Positions 17,997 through 50,741 of a stretch of DNA of 51,138 nucleotides are shown one piece after another. The translations under genes were made by a program, and so were the position numbers. The notes below the pieces were generated by a model. That model was not told the DNA's origin. It saw only the letters and a list, made by a program, of their open reading frames with translations, and searched no databases. Positions within the stretch are counted from its first letter, which is position 1, and every line of letters begins with the position of its first letter. Source of the DNA: Maribacter sp. (GTDB lineage Bacteria; Bacteroidota; Bacteroidia; Flavobacteriales; Flavobacteriaceae); the NCBI RefSeq assembly GCF_016744255.1, contig NZ_JADGES010000009.1, positions 1 to 51,138 of the forward strand, in the 5' to 3' direction.

Positions 17997-18001
17997 TCCC
18001 C

Positions 18002-18309
18002 AAGCAGGTCTCCTTATCGCTGTTCGCCTTGTGTGAAGAGAGGAAAGTCCGGACACCATAGTGCAGTATAGCGGGTAACACCCGTCTCCCAATTTATTGG
18101 GACGGACAAGTGCAACAGAAAGTATGTACAGGTAATGCTGTAGTGAAACCAGGTAAACTCTATACGGTGAAACGTCACGTAAATCAGTGTTCGAGGGCAG
18201 CACGTCCGAGCTGAAGGGTAGGCGGTTAGAGCCTTTGGGTAACCACTGGCCTAGATAAATGATAAGGATTTGTTTTATACAAAGACAGAATCCGGCTTAT
18301 GACCTGCTT
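18002..18309 (+). ncRNA. rnpB: RNase P RNA (bacterial class A)
   Basis: Catalytic RNA of RNase P, which cleaves the 5' leader of pre-tRNAs. Signatures are the P4 strand GAGGAAAGTCCGGACACC at 18040-18057, AGTGCAACAGAAAG near 18109, the GGTGAAACG region near 18166, and the 3' part GGCCTAGATAAATGA then ACAGAATCCGGCTTATGACC. The outer helix P1 is AAGCAGGTC (18002-18010) with GACCTGCTT (18301-18309), followed by a T-run that ends transcription. The length of about 308 nt is slightly below E. coli. The 3' end lies only 2 bp from the stop codon of the oppositely oriented cytochrome gene. Confidence 0.95.
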
Positions 18310-18311
18310 TT

Positions 18312-20525
18312 TTATAATCTAGAATTTATATTATCTAACAACTGTTTGTAAGCAGGGTTGTCGGGAAATGATTCTAGTAAAAAAAGAGTGGTGTTTTTTG
18401 CTCCTTGCGTATTGTTCGTATTAATTTGATTAATAACTTTTAAATATAAAAGACGCTCACTGTTGGGAACTTCTTTTAACCCCTTTTCAATTACTGTCCT
18501 TGCGTCCTTATATTTCTGTTGTTCTTGTAGTTTTATACCGTAATTATAGAACGCATTAATTAGGATAGGCTTTTTTTCTGTAGCTAATTTTAAGTATTGT
18601 ATAGATTTTTGTGGTTGGTTAATTTCATTGTATAATAAGCCTAGCATAAAATGTGGATAACTCGAATGTGGCTCTTGAGAAGCCACCTTTAAGTAAAGCT
18701 CTTCAGCTTCTTTCGTTTTTCCTTGATTATATACAATTAAAGCTAAATTTAATCTTGAAAGATTGTAATAATTGTCAATGAAAATTGCGTTTCTATAGGC
18801 TTTTTCTGCAGCTGTTATGTCTCCTTTTGCGGCATGTAATAACCCAATTTTATGTTGTCCTGAGGGGAATTCGGAATTATTTTCTAATGAATTTTTAAGT
18901 TCTTTATTTGCTTTTTTGTATTCTCTATTTTGTGGTAAAGGAATGTTATTTGCCGCATAGAATTGGGCTGCAGATATTCTAACAGATCGTATGGAATCTA
19001 ATAATAAGGGTTGAATATAATTATTGGTATACTCGTTTGCATTTATTTTTTCTAATACAGCCACCGCTTCTTTTCTTACTAAAGGAGAACTGTCATTTAT
19101 AAAATGTAATATGTTGTTAATGTCTTGTTCAGATAAGTTTTGGTTTGCGTAATTGTAAAGAGCTGTGGCTCTAATTATTTCTGGGTAATTAGAGTTTTTT
19201 AGGATGGAGTGATAAGCATCAAAATTGCCATTAGTTCCTTCTAATAATAAATTGGAATAATGATTTTGGTCTGGTTCTCCAAATTTCAATTTTAAGAAGT
19301 TACTTGCCCAAACAGGACTTTTGTCTGTGTGGCACTTGTTGCATGCATTGGGTGTGTCGTATTTTATGCTTTGGTCTGGCCTTGGTACTCTAAAGCTATG
19401 GTCTCTTCGATAATCATTACCCATGTACGTTTTTCCATCCATATGGCAGTTTATGCATAAAGAAGCAGGAGTATCTTTTTTATGAAAATGATGCTCGGGT
19501 TCGTTGTAGGTAGGGACATGACAGCTTAAGCATAAATCGTTCCCCTGTTTTTTTAACTTTAAGGAGTGTACATCATGGCAATCTTTACAAGACACATTGT
19601 TGTGGTACATTTTGCTTTGTACAAAAGAGCCGTATACATATACTTCATCTTTTATCTGGCCGTCTAATTCATACAGAGGGTCAATGATTAAAGAAGGTGC
19701 GTAATGATCTAGATAGTGCCCTGTATAATCAAAATAGTCGGTATGTTGTGTGCGCCTAGAATGGCATCTTGCGCATTTCTGCACCACTTCTTTACTATCC
19801 ATGTTTTTTGTCATGTATAACTCGGGAGGCACCGTACTTTTAGATTTATTTTTGTAAAACTCTACATGTTTACTAGCTGGGCCATGGCAGGCCTCACAAC
19901 TTACATTTATAATACTATACGTTGTTTCGTAGCTTTGGGTGTTAGAATCGTATTTTTTTTGAAGATTAGTAGAGTGGCAATCTGCACACATGGAATTCCA
20001 TGACATACTTCCGCCACTCCAATGCATCCATTCATTGTGTTCAATTACTAAATTTGGTTGCAGATTAAACCATATGTTCTTATTGCTATCCCAAGCAACC
20101 ATTAGGCATTGGTAGCTCCCGTTAGGGAAGGCGATTAAATATTGTTGTAAAGGAAAAACTCCAAAAGTATATTTTATTTTAAAATCTTGGTATTTGCCAT
20201 TTCCTCCTTCTGTATTTACGTAAAAATTATTCCCTTTTTTTGTAAAAAGATAGTTTACGCCTTTGCTTTTAAAAGTAGTAGTATTAAAATCACCAAGAAC
20301 AGTTGTAGAATCGGCAATTTGCATGGCTAAATCATGGTCTGAGTTTTCCCAACGTGCATGTTCGTCATTGTGGCAAGATATGCAGGTCTCTGTGCCTGCA
20401 AAATGAGGAGTTATTTTTGTAGTGCTTTTTTCTTTAATTGGTACATATCCTTTGTCTTTGCAAGAAGTATTAAAGATGGCAAAAAGTGCAATAATTAATA
20501 GAGGTAGAATATTGTTTTTTGCCAT
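18312..20525 (-). CDS. Octaheme c-type cytochrome lipoprotein with HEAT/TPR repeats
   Basis: A protein of 737 residues. A lipoprotein signal peptide (hydrophobic 7-19, Cys22 in FNTSCKDKG) predicts export and lipid anchoring. Eight CxxCH heme motifs are present, in order CISCH (48-52), CADCH, CEACH, CARCH, CKDCH, CLSCH, CINCH and CNKCH, all in roughly the first 400 residues. The arrangement resembles cytochrome c554/NrfA-like multiheme electron carriers. A HEAT-like segment (PEIIRATALYNYA; SPLVRKEAVAVLEKI) and about five TPRs follow. Substrate or electron partner is unknown; no other respiratory gene is nearby. It is followed by rnpB on the other strand. Confidence 0.88.
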   Translation of the reverse strand: MAKNNILPLLIIALFAIFNTSCKDKGYVPIKEKSTTKITPHFAGTETCISCHNDEHARWENSDHDLAMQIADSTTVLGDFNTTTFKSKGVNYLFTKKGNNFYVNTEGGNGKYQDFKIKYTFGVFPLQQYLIAFPNGSYQCLMVAWDSNKNIWFNLQPNLVIEHNEWMHWSGGSMSWNSMCADCHSTNLQKKYDSNTQSYETTYSIINVSCEACHGPASKHVEFYKNKSKSTVPPELYMTKNMDSKEVVQKCARCHSRRTQHTDYFDYTGHYLDHYAPSLIIDPLYELDGQIKDEVYVYGSFVQSKMYHNNVSCKDCHDVHSLKLKKQGNDLCLSCHVPTYNEPEHHFHKKDTPASLCINCHMDGKTYMGNDYRRDHSFRVPRPDQSIKYDTPNACNKCHTDKSPVWASNFLKLKFGEPDQNHYSNLLLEGTNGNFDAYHSILKNSNYPEIIRATALYNYANQNLSEQDINNILHFINDSSPLVRKEAVAVLEKINANEYTNNYIQPLLLDSIRSVRISAAQFYAANNIPLPQNREYKKANKELKNSLENNSEFPSGQHKIGLLHAAKGDITAAEKAYRNAIFIDNYYNLSRLNLALIVYNQGKTKEAEELYLKVASQEPHSSYPHFMLGLLYNEINQPQKSIQYLKLATEKKPILINAFYNYGIKLQEQQKYKDARTVIEKGLKEVPNSERLLYLKVINQINTNNTQGAKNTTLFLLESFPDNPAYKQLLDNINSRL

Positions 20526-33276: not shown

Positions 33277-34572
33277 TTAGCGTTTTAATAAATGTCTTTT
33301 TAGCTCGTCATAGGTAGCTATTTTATGAGATATTTTCTCTTTATCTATTACTTTTAATATTTGAGAAGGGATGTCGATTTTAACATCCATAGTATCTTCC
33401 ACAATATCTAAAAACTTTACAGGATGCGCGGTTTCTAAGAAAATTCCATACGTATCAGGGGTATTTTTTCGATACTTTTTAAGACCTAAATATCCAACGG
33501 CACCATGAGGGTCGGTAATGTATTTAGAGTCTTTATATATTTCGAGCATAGCTTTTTTTGTTTCTTCATCTGTAAAAGAATACGAAGAAAGATTTTTGGC
33601 TAAGTCTGTAAAATTATCTTTAAATAAATGACGAATTCGGATAAAATTACTTGGGTCGCCAACATCCATAGCGTTAGATATAGTTGCTGAGGATGGTTTA
33701 GGGGAGTATTCTTGCGTTCTCATAAATTCAGGTACGGTGTCATTAACATTAGTTGCTGCAACAAATTGTTTTACAGGCATACCTAAGCGTTGTGCCATTA
33801 AACCTGCGCAAATATTACCAAAATTACCACTAGGAACTGAAAATACAATCTCTTTATCTTTAGATTTTGCTTGTTTATAAGCAAATAGAAAGTAAAATAA
33901 CTGCGGTAACCAGCGCGCAACATTGATTGAGTTTGCAGATGTTAACTGCATATTATTTAATAATTCACTGTCTAGAAATGCATTTTTAACCATAGCTTGG
34001 CAATCGTCGAAAGTACCACTTACTTCTAATGCAGTAATGTTTTGGCCTAGCGTTGTAAGTTGTCTTTCTTGTATATCACTAACTTTTCCGCTCGGGTATA
34101 GAATAACCACTTTAACGCCTTTTACTCCTAAAAACCCATTAGCAACGGCACCTCCTGTATCTCCAGATGTAGCGACTAAAACAGTAACTTCATTATCTTC
34201 TCCTTCCGAAAAATAGCCTAAACAATTAGCCATAAAACGGGCGCCAACATCTTTAAAAGCCATAGTAGGACCATGAAATAATTCTAATGTGGCAGTATTT
34301 TCGCTTATTTCAACTATAGGAAAATCAAAATCTAAAACATTAGATAGTATTTCTTTTAATCTATCTTCTGGAATTTCTGAAGAAACAAACTGCTTTATTG
34401 CTTGGAACGCTATCTCTGTGTTAGATAACGATTCTATGTTTTCAAAAAACGAAGCTGGTAAAGGTGTTATACTTTCAGGAAAATACAATCCTTTGTCTGG
34501 GGCAATACCTTTAATTACGGCATCTTTAAAAGATACCTTTGGCGCTTTTTTATTTAGGCTGTAAAAGTTCAT
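33277..34572 (-). CDS. thrC: Threonine synthase
   Basis: PLP enzyme converting O-phosphohomoserine to threonine. It has 431 residues, the longer E. coli-type length. MNFYSLNKKAPKVSFKDAVIKG at the N-terminus, the PLP-lysine motif HGPTMAFKDVGARF near 100-113, ATSGDTGGAVANG near 133, and SGNFGNICAG near 247 are visible. It is last in thrA-thrB-thrC, 3 bp after the thrB stop. Confidence 0.96.
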   Translation of the reverse strand: MNFYSLNKKAPKVSFKDAVIKGIAPDKGLYFPESITPLPASFFENIESLSNTEIAFQAIKQFVSSEIPEDRLKEILSNVLDFDFPIVEISENTATLELFHGPTMAFKDVGARFMANCLGYFSEGEDNEVTVLVATSGDTGGAVANGFLGVKGVKVVILYPSGKVSDIQERQLTTLGQNITALEVSGTFDDCQAMVKNAFLDSELLNNMQLTSANSINVARWLPQLFYFLFAYKQAKSKDKEIVFSVPSGNFGNICAGLMAQRLGMPVKQFVAATNVNDTVPEFMRTQEYSPKPSSATISNAMDVGDPSNFIRIRHLFKDNFTDLAKNLSSYSFTDEETKKAMLEIYKDSKYITDPHGAVGYLGLKKYRKNTPDTYGIFLETAHPVKFLDIVEDTMDVKIDIPSQILKVIDKEKISHKIATYDELKRHLLKR

Positions 34573-34575
34573 TCT

Positions 34576-35499
34576 TTAATCTATTATTTTTATTCCTTGG
34601 GTGTTAATTTTTGATACATGTATATCGAAATCAATGCCAATATTTTTATATACTTCTCTCATAGCTTTTGCAACTTTGTTTGCAGTTTCTTCGCCTTTAC
34701 TAAACGTGAATATAGAAGGTCCAGAACCAGATATTCCACATCCTAGTGCTCCAGCATTTAAAGTTTCTTTTTTTATATTATCGAAACCTGGAATTAAAAT
34801 GGAGCGTATAGGTTCTATGATATGGTCTTCTAGAGATCTACCAATTAAATTATAATCTTCCATAAACAAGCCAGCAACTAATCCACCAACATTTCCCCAT
34901 TGTTTAATGCCATTTTCTAGAGAAATAGTTGTCTTTAGAATTTTTCTAGAATCGGCAGTTTTAACTTCAATTTGTGGGTGAATAACTGTAGCGTATAATT
35001 CTGGCGGACTTTTTATAGGGATGATGTCTAGCGGCGTGTAGCTACGAACCAAAGTAAATGCTCCAAATAGGGCAGGAGCAACATTGTCTGCATGCGCTAC
35101 ACCACTTGCTAAACGCTCTCCTTCCATTGCAAACCTAACTAATTCGGTTTTAGAAAACGGACATCCTAATAAATGGTTCATTGCCCAAACGGCTCCTGTA
35201 GAGCTTGCTGCGCTACTGCCTATGCCGCTACCAGCTTTAATTTTTTTATAAATTTCTATCTCAAAACCACCATTATAATCGGCTTTTTCTAATAATGCTA
35301 CACCTGCTACACCAGCAACATTTTTTTTCGTTTCGAGAGGTAAATTTTGCCCTTCTAGTTTAGTGATTTTAATGCCGGCTTCTTTTGTTTTACGAACTAC
35401 CATTTCGTCGCCAACAGAATCTAAAGCAACTCCGAGTACATCAAAACCACAGGAGATGTTTGCTATTGTAGCCGGACAAAAAACTTTTATTTCTTCCAT
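34576..35499 (-). CDS. thrB: Homoserine kinase
   Basis: GHMP-family kinase phosphorylating homoserine. It has 307 residues. N-terminal VFCPATIANISCGFDVLGVALD, the glycine-rich phosphate loop KAGSGIGSSAASSTGAVWAMN (about 89-109, mentioned as a single loop), AHADNVAPALFGAF near 136 and the C-terminal GCGISGSGPSIF are GHMP motifs 1-3. It follows thrA with a 2-bp gap and precedes thrC by 3 bp. Confidence 0.96.
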   Translation of the reverse strand: MEEIKVFCPATIANISCGFDVLGVALDSVGDEMVVRKTKEAGIKITKLEGQNLPLETKKNVAGVAGVALLEKADYNGGFEIEIYKKIKAGSGIGSSAASSTGAVWAMNHLLGCPFSKTELVRFAMEGERLASGVAHADNVAPALFGAFTLVRSYTPLDIIPIKSPPELYATVIHPQIEVKTADSRKILKTTISLENGIKQWGNVGGLVAGLFMEDYNLIGRSLEDHIIEPIRSILIPGFDNIKKETLNAGALGCGISGSGPSIFTFSKGEETANKVAKAMREVYKNIGIDFDIHVSKINTQGIKIID

Positions 35500-35501
35500 G
35501 C

Positions 35502-37946
35502 TTAAAAATTACCTATTCTAATAATATCAGCAAAAATTCCCGAAGCAGTAACATCTGCACCAGCACCAGCACCTTTTATAATCATTGGTTGGTTAGGGTA
35601 CCTTTCTGTGTAAAACAAAACAATATTGTCGCTACCTTCTAGATTGTAAAAATCGTGTCCTTTGGGTATTTCTTGTAACCCAACACTAGCTTTACCATCT
35701 TCATATTGAGCAACGTATTTTAGCTTGCTGTCTGCATCTTTCGCTTTTTTATAAATAGCTTGGAAAGAATCTTCATGTTTAATTAAAGAAGTAAAAAAGT
35801 CCTCATTGTTTGTTGTGTCTAAACTTTCTTGTGGTAAAAATGGGTTGTTGACTATGTCATCAATCTCTAACTGATTACCACTTTCTCTTGCTAAAATTAA
35901 AATTTTACGCATTACATCAACCCCACTTAAATCAATCTTTGGGTCTGGTTCTGTGTAACCCTCTTCTTGTGCTTGTTTTACAATGTTATGGAAGGTGGTT
36001 TCATCATTAAAATAATTGAAAACAAAATTTAAACTACCAGAAAGAACAGCTTGTATTTTTAATATTTTATCGCCAGAAGCAATTAAATGTTTTAGTGTAT
36101 CTATGATAGGTAAGCCTGCACCTACATTAGTTTCGAATAAGAAAGGAGCGTTATATTCTCTAGCTAATCTTTTTAGTTCTTTATAATTGTCAAATTTAGA
36201 AGAACATGCAATTTTGTTACATGTAACAACAGAAATGCTGTTTCCTAAATATGTGTTATAGGTTTCAGATACTTCTGCACTAGCAGTGTTATCAACAAAA
36301 ATGCTGTTTCTGTAATTAAGAGTGTTAACTTTCTCAAAGAATTTTTGCTTATCGGCTTTTTCTCCTTTTACTAGTGAATTTTCCCAGTTATTTAGGTTAA
36401 TTCCATTCTCATCAAAAAGCATGGTTCTGGAGTTCGAAATTCCAATAACTCTTATGTTTAGTTTTAAATTTTCTTTTAAATAGTCTCTTTGCTGTAAAAC
36501 TTGCTTTAAAAATTTAGCCCCAACATTACCAACTCCCATTACAAATAGGTTGAGTTGCTTTACGTTTTCTTCAAAAAACTCTTCATGTAAGGTGTTTAAT
36601 GCTTTTTTTACATCTTCTTTTTTAATAACAGTAGATATGTTTCTTTCCGAAGCTCCTTGCGCAATTGCTCTAATATTGACATTGTTTTTTCCAAGAGTAC
36701 TAAACATTTTTCCGCTAAGACCTTGGTGACTTTTCATGTTGTCACCAACTAAAGCAACAATGGCCAAATCTTTCTCAGGGATTACGGGGTTTATTTTACC
36801 TCTTTCAATTTCATATTCAAAAGCACTATTTACAATTTCAACAGCTTTTTCAATATCATCTGCCGAAATACCAACACATATAGAATGCTCGGAAGATGCT
36901 TGTGTGATTAATACTACGCTAATATCTGCTTGCGATAGAACTTCGAAAAATCGTTTAGAAATACCAGGAATACCTACCATTCCAGAACCTTCTAAAGATA
37001 GTAATGCAATATTTTCAACACTACTAATACCACGAACAGTTTTTCCCTTTTCGTTTTTCGTTTTTGTAATTAAGGTACCTTCATTATCTGGTTCAAAAGT
37101 ATTTTTTATGCAAATAGATATTCCTTCAGCTAATACAGGTTGTATTGTTGGTGGGTATAGTACTTTAGCTCCAAAATGAGAAAGCTCCATTGCTTCTTCG
37201 TAAGAAATATGAGGAATAGCTTTTGCTTGGTGAACCAATCTGGGGTTAGCGGTGTACATACCACTTACGTCTGTGTAAATTTCTAGAATATCGGCTTTTA
37301 CAGCAGCAGCATAAATAGCTGCGGTATAGTCAGAACCTCCGCGGCCTAAGGTCGTAGAATTTCCGTTTTCCGATGATGCAATAAATCCAGGAGTTACAAC
37401 GACTGTACTTTTTGTATTGGTAAAGAAATGAAGGCTGTTTTTATAAGTTAGATTAAAATTAACAACTGCTTTTCCGTTTAAGTCGTTTGTTTTTATAAGC
37501 TCTCTACTGTCTTTGTATTCCGCATTTAAGCCTTCTTGTTTAAAATACTCACTAATAAGATAGGAAGATAATAACTCACCATAACTCACAATTTTATCAG
37601 ATAGTTTTGGGGTTATTTCCCCTATTAAGAAAGCGCCCTCTAGTAAGGTCTCTAAAGTGTTAAGTTCACTTTTTACTTTACTTAGAATAGAGCTTTGGTT
37701 TTTTACGTCTATAAGCTCTTTGACAGTAGATAGGTGTCTTTCTTCAATATCAGTAATAACTTGCTTGTAGGTTGCATCCTGGCTGGCTGCTAAATCGGCT
37801 GATTTTAGAAGTAAATCTGTTACCCCTCCAAAAGCAGAAACAACAACAATGTTTTTTTTGCTTTTACTATTATTAATTATGTTTTTTACTAGATCTATAT
37901 TATTTGCGTTGGCTACGGAAGTACCGCCAAATTTTAAAACTTTCAT
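35502..37946 (-). CDS. thrA: Bifunctional aspartokinase / homoserine dehydrogenase I
   Basis: Catalyses the first and third steps from aspartate to threonine. It has 814 residues. N-terminal kinase (KFGGTSVANA at 4-13; GRGGSDYTAAIYA near 201-213), two ACT regulatory modules (about 310-455; LLSLEGSGMVGIPGI and IVALVGDNMKSHQGLSGKMF), then the dehydrogenase domain with NAD loop FVMGVGNVGAKFL near 465, NKIACS near 571 and VLSGSLNFVFNYF / GYTEPDPKIDLSGVDVMRK near 640-680. ACT modules imply allosteric threonine feedback. A Thr-rich leader peptide lies 75 bp upstream. Confidence 0.97.
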   Translation of the reverse strand: MKVLKFGGTSVANANNIDLVKNIINNSKSKKNIVVVSAFGGVTDLLLKSADLAASQDATYKQVITDIEERHLSTVKELIDVKNQSSILSKVKSELNTLETLLEGAFLIGEITPKLSDKIVSYGELLSSYLISEYFKQEGLNAEYKDSRELIKTNDLNGKAVVNFNLTYKNSLHFFTNTKSTVVVTPGFIASSENGNSTTLGRGGSDYTAAIYAAAVKADILEIYTDVSGMYTANPRLVHQAKAIPHISYEEAMELSHFGAKVLYPPTIQPVLAEGISICIKNTFEPDNEGTLITKTKNEKGKTVRGISSVENIALLSLEGSGMVGIPGISKRFFEVLSQADISVVLITQASSEHSICVGISADDIEKAVEIVNSAFEYEIERGKINPVIPEKDLAIVALVGDNMKSHQGLSGKMFSTLGKNNVNIRAIAQGASERNISTVIKKEDVKKALNTLHEEFFEENVKQLNLFVMGVGNVGAKFLKQVLQQRDYLKENLKLNIRVIGISNSRTMLFDENGINLNNWENSLVKGEKADKQKFFEKVNTLNYRNSIFVDNTASAEVSETYNTYLGNSISVVTCNKIACSSKFDNYKELKRLAREYNAPFLFETNVGAGLPIIDTLKHLIASGDKILKIQAVLSGSLNFVFNYFNDETTFHNIVKQAQEEGYTEPDPKIDLSGVDVMRKILILARESGNQLEIDDIVNNPFLPQESLDTTNNEDFFTSLIKHEDSFQAIYKKAKDADSKLKYVAQYEDGKASVGLQEIPKGHDFYNLEGSDNIVLFYTERYPNQPMIIKGAGAGADVTASGIFADIIRIGNF

Positions 37947-38021
37947 TATGTAATGGGATTAACTTGTACTGAATAAGTGAGTTGCGTGTAAAACGCGTAA
38001 AATGGACGTATATGTAGTAGC

Positions 38022-38038
38022 TTACCCCAATGGGGTAA
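38022..38038 (-). promoter_or_regulatory. Leader hairpin overlapping the thr leader peptide stop
   Basis: On the transcript TTACCCC-ATT-GGGGTAA forms a 7-bp stem with a 3-nt loop whose 3' end is the leader stop codon. An upstream stretch ACCAATGG (38066-38059) can pair with CCATTGG inside it, so two mutually exclusive folds exist. A second hairpin, ACCAAT with ATTGGT (38066-38043), spans the Thr codons. No U-run follows, so it is not a classic terminator. Confidence 0.6.
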
Positions 38039-38105
38039 TTGTACCAATTGTAGTTGTACCATTGGTCAATGAAGAAAATAATATGTCCGTTATTTTGTCG
38101 TACAT
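38022..38105 (-). CDS. Threonine-rich thr operon leader peptide
   Basis: A 27-codon frame that starts ATG at 38105 and ends TAA at 38022. It reads MYDKITDILFSSLTNG then TTTIGTITPLG. Seven of 27 residues are Thr and four Ile; residues 14-24 hold six Thr in eleven. This parallels E. coli thrL, where ribosome stalling at Thr/Ile codons controls the thr operon. It lies between a good promoter and thrA (start 37946), and its Thr codons overlap hairpins with alternative pairing. Family similarity cannot be tested by eye; the composition, position and RNA folds together are the evidence. The absence of a U-tract leaves the mechanism (translational, Rho-dependent or other) open. Confidence 0.72.
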   Translation of the reverse strand: MYDKITDILFSSLTNGTTTIGTITPLG

Positions 38106-38121
38106 GATTCTTTGTGTGTCT

Positions 38122-38152
38122 CAAAAGTAGTACATTTGGTTTGCTAATCAAA
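38122..38152 (-). promoter_or_regulatory. Promoter of the thr operon
   Basis: On the minus strand: TTTG (38152-38149), exactly 19 nt, then TACTTTTG (38129-38122), a full match to the Bacteroidetes consensus. It lies 17 bp upstream of the leader peptide ATG. Confidence 0.75.
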
Positions 38153-38205
38153 TGTTTCTAGTGATTTTTGCGAAATCCTCACTATTTGCTTAATAATTGT
38201 ATTGA

Positions 38206-50519: not shown

Positions 50520-50608
50520 GGAGAGGTGCCTGAGTGGCCGAAAGGAACGGTTTGCTAAATCGTCGTACTTAGAAATAGGTACCCAGGGTTCGAATCCCTG
50601 TCTCTCCG
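50520..50608 (+). tRNA. tRNA-Ser (GCU)
   Basis: 89-nt cloverleaf. Acceptor GGAGAGG pairs with TCTCTCC (one G-T wobble), discriminator G. The anticodon stem-loop around GCT at 50553-50555 reads AGC/AGT codons. A long variable arm (class II) and T-arm GGTTCGAATCC are present. No encoded CCA. Confidence 0.96.
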
Positions 50609-50666: not shown

Positions 50667-50741
50667 CGGGGTGTAGCGTAGCCCGGTTATCGCGCCTCGT
50701 TTGGGACGAGGAGGTCGCAGGTTCGAATCCTGCCACCCCGA
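50667..50741 (+). tRNA. tRNA-Pro (UGG)
   Basis: 75-nt cloverleaf. Acceptor CGGGGTG pairs with CACCCCG, discriminator A. Anticodon stem CCTCG/CGAGG surrounds loop TTTGGGA with anticodon TGG. T-arm GCAGGTTCGAATCCTGC. No encoded CCA. It follows tRNA-Ser after 58 bp. The next gene downstream is an integrase stub. Confidence 0.96.

Follow-up and report, generated by a model that had tools for sequence, protein, structure and literature searches.

A threonine-rich leader peptide with a stop-codon hairpin upstream of thrABC in Maribacter and other Bacteroidota, and its possible Rho-dependent readout

The leader and the thr genes

The window, by which we mean the whole stretch of 51,138 nucleotides of Maribacter DNA analysed here, carries on its minus strand a short threonine-rich reading frame directly 5′ of the threonine biosynthesis genes, with a promoter motif 5′ of the frame. 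thrA, thrB and thrC stand in one row 3′ of this leader, and the thrABC identity proposed in a first-pass annotation was borne out by NCBIfam models.

38149..38152, minus strand: −33 promoter element TTTG, read from the sequence
38122..38129, minus strand: −7 promoter element TACTTTTG, of the TAHHTTTG type, read from the sequence
38022..38105, minus strand: 27-codon Thr-rich leader peptide frame, ATG at 38105, TAA at 38022
35502..37946, minus strand: thrA, bifunctional aspartate kinase/homoserine dehydrogenase I (NF006959, 1052.7 bits for a cut-off of 726)
34576..35499, minus strand: thrB, homoserine kinase (TIGR00191, above cut-off)
33277..34572, minus strand: thrC, threonine synthase (TIGR00260, above cut-off)

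The promoter postulated just ahead of the leader consists of Bacteroidota-type elements, TTTG (38152-38149) being followed after 19 nt by TACTTTTG (38129-38122) and, after another 16 nt, by the leader ATG. According to PMC6847099, TAHHTTTG is the −7 element in F. johnsoniae. Transcription would start near 38117. The 27-codon frame (38105-38022) encodes MYDKITDILFSSLTNGTTTIGTITPLG, with Thr at residues 14, 17, 18, 19, 22 and 24, that is, the six Thr within residues 14-24 counted earlier, and Ile is present besides Thr. Leaders of such length escape ordinary gene calling. The divergent neighbour of the leader and thr genes is an NAD(P)H-hydrate epimerase/dehydratase gene.

A riboswitch or another Rfam element was considered for the leader and dropped, no family reaching its gathering score there. 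A permissive Rfam search of positions 37900-38205 returned far-below-threshold matches only, with RF00506 absent among them, and the phage collection searched gave no match.

Conservation of the leader among relatives

thrA was searched in 299 genomes of the window’s family, 237 of which gave a match at E 1e-200 or better, and 116 upstream regions were taken from the best-scoring of these 237 matches, some being skipped. Eight of the 116 belong to the window’s own genus and the set is mostly not thinned; because of this relatedness among the genomes, part of which share a single genus, the p and z values given below overstate independence. The thrA start was recognised in 115 of 116 upstream regions, the exception (L089) being found by a looser rule.

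In 110/115 regions a stop codon, the nearest of three frames, is found no more than 10 nt from a hairpin of the form A-CCC(C)-loop-(G)GGG-U; taken alone, this count is little evidence. Between hairpin and stop, offsets of −1 (49 loci) and +3 (25 loci) predominate. Five of the 115 loci have no hairpin by the stop, and 11 of the 110 hairpin loci have no ATG in the open frame. The leader frame was picked by its stop near the hairpin, Thr content not being used; in the 18-codon stretch ending two codons before the leader stop, Thr amounts to 28.8% in this frame and to 1.9% and 1.6% in the other two (108 loci). L044 and L103 were excluded from the Thr counts, as from the C>G counts below, the first hairpin found there not being the leader’s own. 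Many genera resembling the window have leaders ending in TTPLG before the stop (type A) and another large group has TTLWGC (type B), while across the family the N-terminal half varies widely and the Thr tail and the hairpin persist.

The promoter motif and the position of the leader before thrA are likewise conserved across the family. Of 99 leaders beginning with ATG, 84 have TAHHTTTG close to the assigned start, 69 of them 16-22 nt upstream of it. A conserved frame, Thr confined to that frame and a promoter motif kept directly upstream argue, at the level of sequence comparison, that the leader is real and conserved in the window’s family and that its Thr run is very probably selected. The recurrence of frame, Thr run and hairpin across the family goes beyond chance. 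Thus the conserved ATG-to-stop frame and Thr enrichment for which the first-pass annotation had proposed to look in relatives were both found.

In eight relatives (L048, L058, L060, L061, L081, L085, L092 and L118) the assigned leader stop lies 132-277 nt from thrA, so tight spacing between leader and thrA is not essential. Three Pricia loci (L170, L175, L180), whose thrA is 78-80% identical to that of the window, yield no stop-codon hairpin under the pattern and distance criteria applied.

For other families, called here after one of their genomes, the analysis covered the 30 best loci of each, out of 49, 42, 36 and 34 genomes with a match. Among loci with a start, Thr/Ile-rich leaders were recognised at 102/116 in the window’s family (f1), 23/30 in that of G306 (f3), 20/29 in that of G351 (f8), 9/29 in that of G378 (f21) and 16/29 in that of G335 (f4). 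Twenty upstream regions of other families were read by eye, one of them without a thrA start.

Intrinsic terminators in thr, his and ilv leaders

Terminators were called as a hairpin of −7 kcal/mol or better with a U-rich tract. None was called in the thr leader of the window, and no U-tract follows the leader, in agreement with the earlier remark that a terminator-type attenuator is not evident; hence this is not the textbook terminator attenuator. In the window’s family only 6/102 Thr/Ile-rich thr leaders gave a call, with best energies from −7.3 to −13.2. Four of the six calls rest on the stop-codon hairpin or its neighbours (L050, L091, L107, L125); the energy is −13.2 in L091 and −11.4 in L125, and both L107 and L125 show five U’s. 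An intrinsic terminator is therefore possible, judging by these calls, in a few members of the family such as L091 and L125.

The thr leaders of the G306 family, another family of the same bacterial class, behave differently, with terminators in 20/23 at −15.1 to −25.3 and stems such as GCGCCTTCCTCC...GGGGAAGGCGC. Loci of this type (L216-L218, L260-L284) have GGAAGG/CCTTCC terminators, and GGAGGAA, seen by eye near the leader end in some of them, could be an antiterminator partner. The remaining families gave 2/20 (G351), 0/9 (G378) and 2/16 (G335) calls.

Two other amino-acid leaders of the window’s family were compared, hisG and ilvD, with the 30 best loci taken for each gene out of 66 and 58, one ilvD locus (L423) having no start. 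A terminator was found in all 30 sampled hisG leaders, which are His-rich, and in 12/13 ilvD leaders. In the window’s own genome the hisG upstream region (L435) is a textbook his attenuator, with the leader MKNTNTHHHFHTGSQAR before its stop, a terminator and a U-tract, and the ilvD upstream region is equally textbook, with an Ile-rich leader, a terminator and a U-tract. Classic attenuation is therefore used elsewhere in these bacteria, and the thr leader is, on the sequences at hand, the exception among the three leaders compared. The own-genome ilv leader (L405, 1164 and around) also has a CCC...GGG hairpin ending at the stop codon, its textbook terminator lying further on. Since both occur together there, hairpins of this kind need not be tied to Rho.

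Helices in the leader RNA

The following elements were placed on the leader RNA, in order of transcription.

38082..38090, minus strand: P1 helix, 5′ strand (ACGGACATA, codons 6-8), by locus-specific complementarity to the 3′ strand
38061..38066, minus strand: H1 hairpin, 5′ arm ACCAAT, z −4.7 for the stretch against the Thr codons
38043..38048, minus strand: H1 hairpin, 3′ arm ATTGGT, by predicted fold and permutation scan
38022..38038, minus strand: H2, stop-codon hairpin UUACCCC-AUU-GGGGUAA, with a hairpin by the stop in 110/115 family members
38002..38011, minus strand: P1 helix, 3′ strand (ATACGTCCAT), GGAC/GUCC pairs in the predicted fold
37984..37996, minus strand: H3 hairpin GCGU-UUUAC-ACGC, by predicted fold and by the type-A and type-B permutation scans

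The ACCAAT/ATTGGT (38066-38061 with 38048-38043) and TTACCCC/GGGGTAA (38038-38022) hairpins already noted in the sequence are present, and both H1 and H2 form in the predicted fold of the window’s leader, although 9 of 200 shuffled sequences folded equally well or better (z −1.93). Applied to MAFFT alignments of the relatives, RNAalifold recovered H2 alone. Because spacing differs between genera, we turned to a permutation test of duplex energies, in which stretches paired within one locus are compared with the same stretches paired across loci.

The type-A scan started from 80 loci, of which 4 dropped out, 1 for lacking a start and 3 for lacking H2; the remaining 76 were joined with 41 type-A sequences and the resulting 117 thinned to 62. 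Over 1711 pairs of scanning windows in these 62 leaders, the blind scan returned H3 (z −9.4), H1 (z −4.7) and P1 (z −4.7), the most positive value being +3.56. In 30 type-B leaders the top pairs were H3 (z −8.7), H1 (z −5.9), the outer part of H1 (z −4.8) and an analogue of P1 (z −4.5). There the H3 pairing holds in 184/213 cells against 67-90 cells for slid versions, and changes on both sides are seen at 6 of its 8 pairs. H3 forms in 25 of the 30 type-B leaders and not in 5; it is AU-rich in this group, at −4 to −8.2 kcal/mol in 22/30.

H2 is near-invariant within the family, and little covariation is therefore available there. Between families its stem is swapped: ACGGG-GUAAU-CCCGU, ACCCC-UUA-GGGGGU and CAACCC-GUUAA-GGGUUG occur, each holding the stop codon. 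A stop-codon hairpin was found in 17/20, 8/9 and 15/16 recognised thr leaders of the G351, G378 and G335 families; in the first of these, 15 of 17 are of the ACGGG type, and L292 and L294 are doubtful. The same method gave 1/23 thr leaders in the G306 family, 4/30 hisG leaders and 65/108 thr leaders in the window’s family, where many other hairpins end a few bases before the stop. By eye, a motif around CATAT-N-(G)TCC (about 38014-38002 in the window) stands at a similar distance 3′ of the stop hairpin in several families.

Switching between these helices was considered in two forms. The competition of H1 and H2 through ACCAATGG proposed by the first-pass annotation is possible in the window sequence but comparatively weak (z −1.7 to −2.2, below P1, H1 and H3) and was not retained. 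The last Thr codons pair with the 5′ arm of H3 in 154/210 cells of type-B leaders, with z −2.76 in type B, −0.66 in type A and +0.10 in the remaining group; this complementarity being found in type B only, it was dropped as a general switch.

A C-rich, G-poor stretch before thrA

37947..38021, minus strand: stretch rich in C and poor in G between the leader stop and thrA, candidate site of Rho loading, by base composition

The stretch between leader and thrA has more C than G in 99/99 family loci, against 59/115 controls, which are upstream regions from 20 genomes of the same family. The C/G ratio is 2.46 for thr and 0.99 for the controls (Mann-Whitney p 3.6e-26). Nine loci with a hairpin start more than 130 nt from thrA are excluded from this set; with these distant leaders retained, C exceeds G in 108/108. 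The corresponding ratios in the window’s family are 1.02 for hisG and 0.72 for ilvD, the latter less comparable because ilvD stretches run up to 285 nt. For thr in other families we obtained 1.02 (G306), 1.79 (G351), 1.58 (G378) and 1.26 (G335), C exceeding G in 12/16 loci of the last, where the bias is weak despite few terminator calls. The first 12 leader codons already have a C/G of 1.58, and part of the bias may thus belong to the strand.

Rho loading signals were sought with the RUT-site part of RhoTermPredict, without its pause-site part, a rule based on E. coli (PMC6407284). RUT-like windows were found in 26/101 thr regions of the window’s family (a set retaining L044 and L103), against 3/115 controls, 1/30 hisG regions and 0/20 thr regions of the G306 family, so that 75/101 thr regions fail this E. 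coli-based rule. The other thr families gave 7/18 (G351), 2/9 (G378) and 3/16 (G335). The window itself passes: 78-nt windows of spaced C start inside the end of the leader and reach into the 37947..38021 stretch. A rho gene is present in the genome (644 bits).

Possible readouts of the leader

That the leader acts as a threonine sensor read by the ribosome is well supported by these comparisons. We would give slightly better than even chances to the whole reading that we favour, namely an attenuator of the thr operon in which the Thr-rich leader senses charged Thr-tRNA and the readout is Rho-dependent instead of intrinsic. Of the two readouts suggested in the first-pass annotation, the Rho-linked one is thus somewhat favoured over the translational one, the thrA start not being sequestered in predicted folds.

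When threonine is sufficient, the ribosome would reach the leader stop codon and depart; H2, H1 and P1 could then fold, and Rho would load on the C-rich, G-poor stretch that stays untranslated ahead of thrA and end transcription. When threonine is scarce, the ribosome would stall on the Thr codons adjoining H2 and keep H2, and partly P1, open, so that RNA polymerase would continue into thrABC. A ribosome stalled upstream would have to protect the Rho site downstream. In type-B leaders H3 might form when the last Thr codons are occupied, because these codons can otherwise pair with its 5′ arm, and may then hinder Rho. We infer Rho as the effector, as well as ribosome stalling, the direction of the response and the part of each helix.

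The best surviving alternative, though an unlikely one, is translational attenuation: a leader folded in the absence of ribosomes would keep thrA from being initiated, and a ribosome halted at the Thr codons would open that leader. The scarcity of terminator calls in thr leaders of the family and the several conserved leader helices would suit this mechanism. According to PMC6847099, mRNAs of these bacteria lack Shine-Dalgarno sequences, and in Bacteroidota the mRNA structure around the start tunes initiation. Yet sequestration of the thrA start in the ribosome-free leader was not found in predicted folds, where the start is slightly more unpaired than in controls (0.518 against 0.487, n 101 and 115, the former set again with L044 and L103); an accessible start speaks against a translational lock. 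Moreover, the stretch that follows H2 and the start of thrA pair less well within a locus than across loci (z +3.84; 93 loci, three groups), and in some members 132-277 nt separate the leader stop and thrA.

Still less probable, in our view, is an intrinsic terminator that lacks a recognisable U-tract and acts at H2 or H3, possibly with the help of Nus factors. In its favour are the GC-rich, near-invariant H2, the strong support for H3 as a hairpin and the fact that most of the few family calls fall on H2 or its neighbours. Against it, hisG, ilvD and G306-family thr leaders give far stronger terminators when searched in the same way, and the type-B H3 is AU-rich with the weak energies given above. 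Marginally behind it comes an action on pausing or on mRNA cleavage and decay, H2 being then a pause hairpin before the CATAT-N-TCC motif or a processing site. The similar distance of this motif from H2 in several families, seen by eye, speaks for such a role, which alone would not explain the C>G bias. Finally, that the frame arose by chance or is an ordinary gene for a small protein, conceivable for a leader below 60 codons, is very improbable given Thr enrichment in one frame only, a variable N-terminal half beside a persistent Thr tail and hairpin, and a conserved promoter motif and position before thrA.

Extending the Rho-dependent reading beyond the window’s family, we tentatively suggest a class of threonine attenuator, common to several Bacteroidota families, from which the intrinsic terminator was lost or in which it was never present. 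In this class the stop-codon hairpin would detect the departure of the ribosome, Rho would act on a dedicated G-poor stretch and H3 would be anti-Rho when the Thr codons are occupied. This extension is well short of an even chance.

Relation to known systems

Attenuation of amino-acid operons with intrinsic terminators is textbook knowledge. In the E. coli thrL attenuator (Rfam RF00506, Thr_leader), a Thr-rich leader precedes thrABC and hairpins overlap the regulatory codons. The thrL-like logic attributed to the Maribacter leader holds in that a conserved Thr leader and conserved structure lie ahead of the thr genes, with hairpins overlapping regulatory codons in both systems. It differs in that here the intrinsic terminator and U-tract are missing and the stop codon lies within or next to a hairpin, and the window leader does not match RF00506 at gathering score. 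The thr leaders of the G306 family share the Thr/Ile-rich peptide and its place before an orthologous thrA, but have the strong terminator with U-rich tract (20/23), hardly any stop hairpin (1/23) and a balanced C/G (1.02).

The E. coli tnaC leader is Rho-dependent, its ribosome stalling at the leader end on excess tryptophan. Both tnaC and the present leader have a candidate Rho site just after the leader stop and no intrinsic terminator, whereas the present leader would stall its ribosome for want of threonine and has several extra helices. The tna operon is named in PMC1262725, a paper on mycobacterial cys leaders. Those leaders are amino-acid-rich and without conserved terminator hairpins, and Rho was guessed from pyrimidine-rich motifs, a prediction that the authors call weak since the motifs are not conserved (PMC1262725). 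In the thr leaders studied here, by contrast, the C>G bias is found in 99/99 loci and RNA helices are conserved.

Closer to the window, strong indications of attenuation by leader peptides ahead of amino-acid operons have been described in Flavobacterium psychrophilum, a member of the same bacterial family, in a work treating regulated transcriptional elongation in general (PMC9723704). thrA is absent from its main text and may stand in its Table S7. Titles and abstract openings among the literature matches listed mention no Bacteroidota thr leader with a stop-codon hairpin or without a terminator. Leader-peptide attenuation in flavobacteria and terminator-less leaders with a Rho guess are thus already known, and the stop-hairpin form of the thr leader in Bacteroidota appears to be new.

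Within one phylum, then, thr attenuation would come in a terminator form, in one family, and in a stop-hairpin form with few or no terminators, in several, while the his and ilv leaders of the window’s family keep the terminator that the thr leader does not. This resembles a natural experiment in which the readout of an attenuator changes while the sensor stays, and it provides concrete candidates for regulated Rho termination in Bacteroidota.

Other features

A second frame, +1 relative to the leader, runs from an ATGG within it to the thrA start (38062-37946, minus strand), and a +1 frame ending on the thrA start also occurs in several relatives. Of 34 type-A loci, 15 have an open +1 frame and 10 an open +2 frame, where shuffling predicts 9.9 and 10.0; distances between leader and thrA spread over 41, 40 and 29 of 110 loci modulo 3 (two with the wrong hairpin). 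As the excess over chance is not clear-cut, the frame was dropped. Elsewhere, the window carries an RNase P RNA of class A (18001-18314, plus strand) and two tRNA genes (50520-50608 and 50667-50741, both plus strand).
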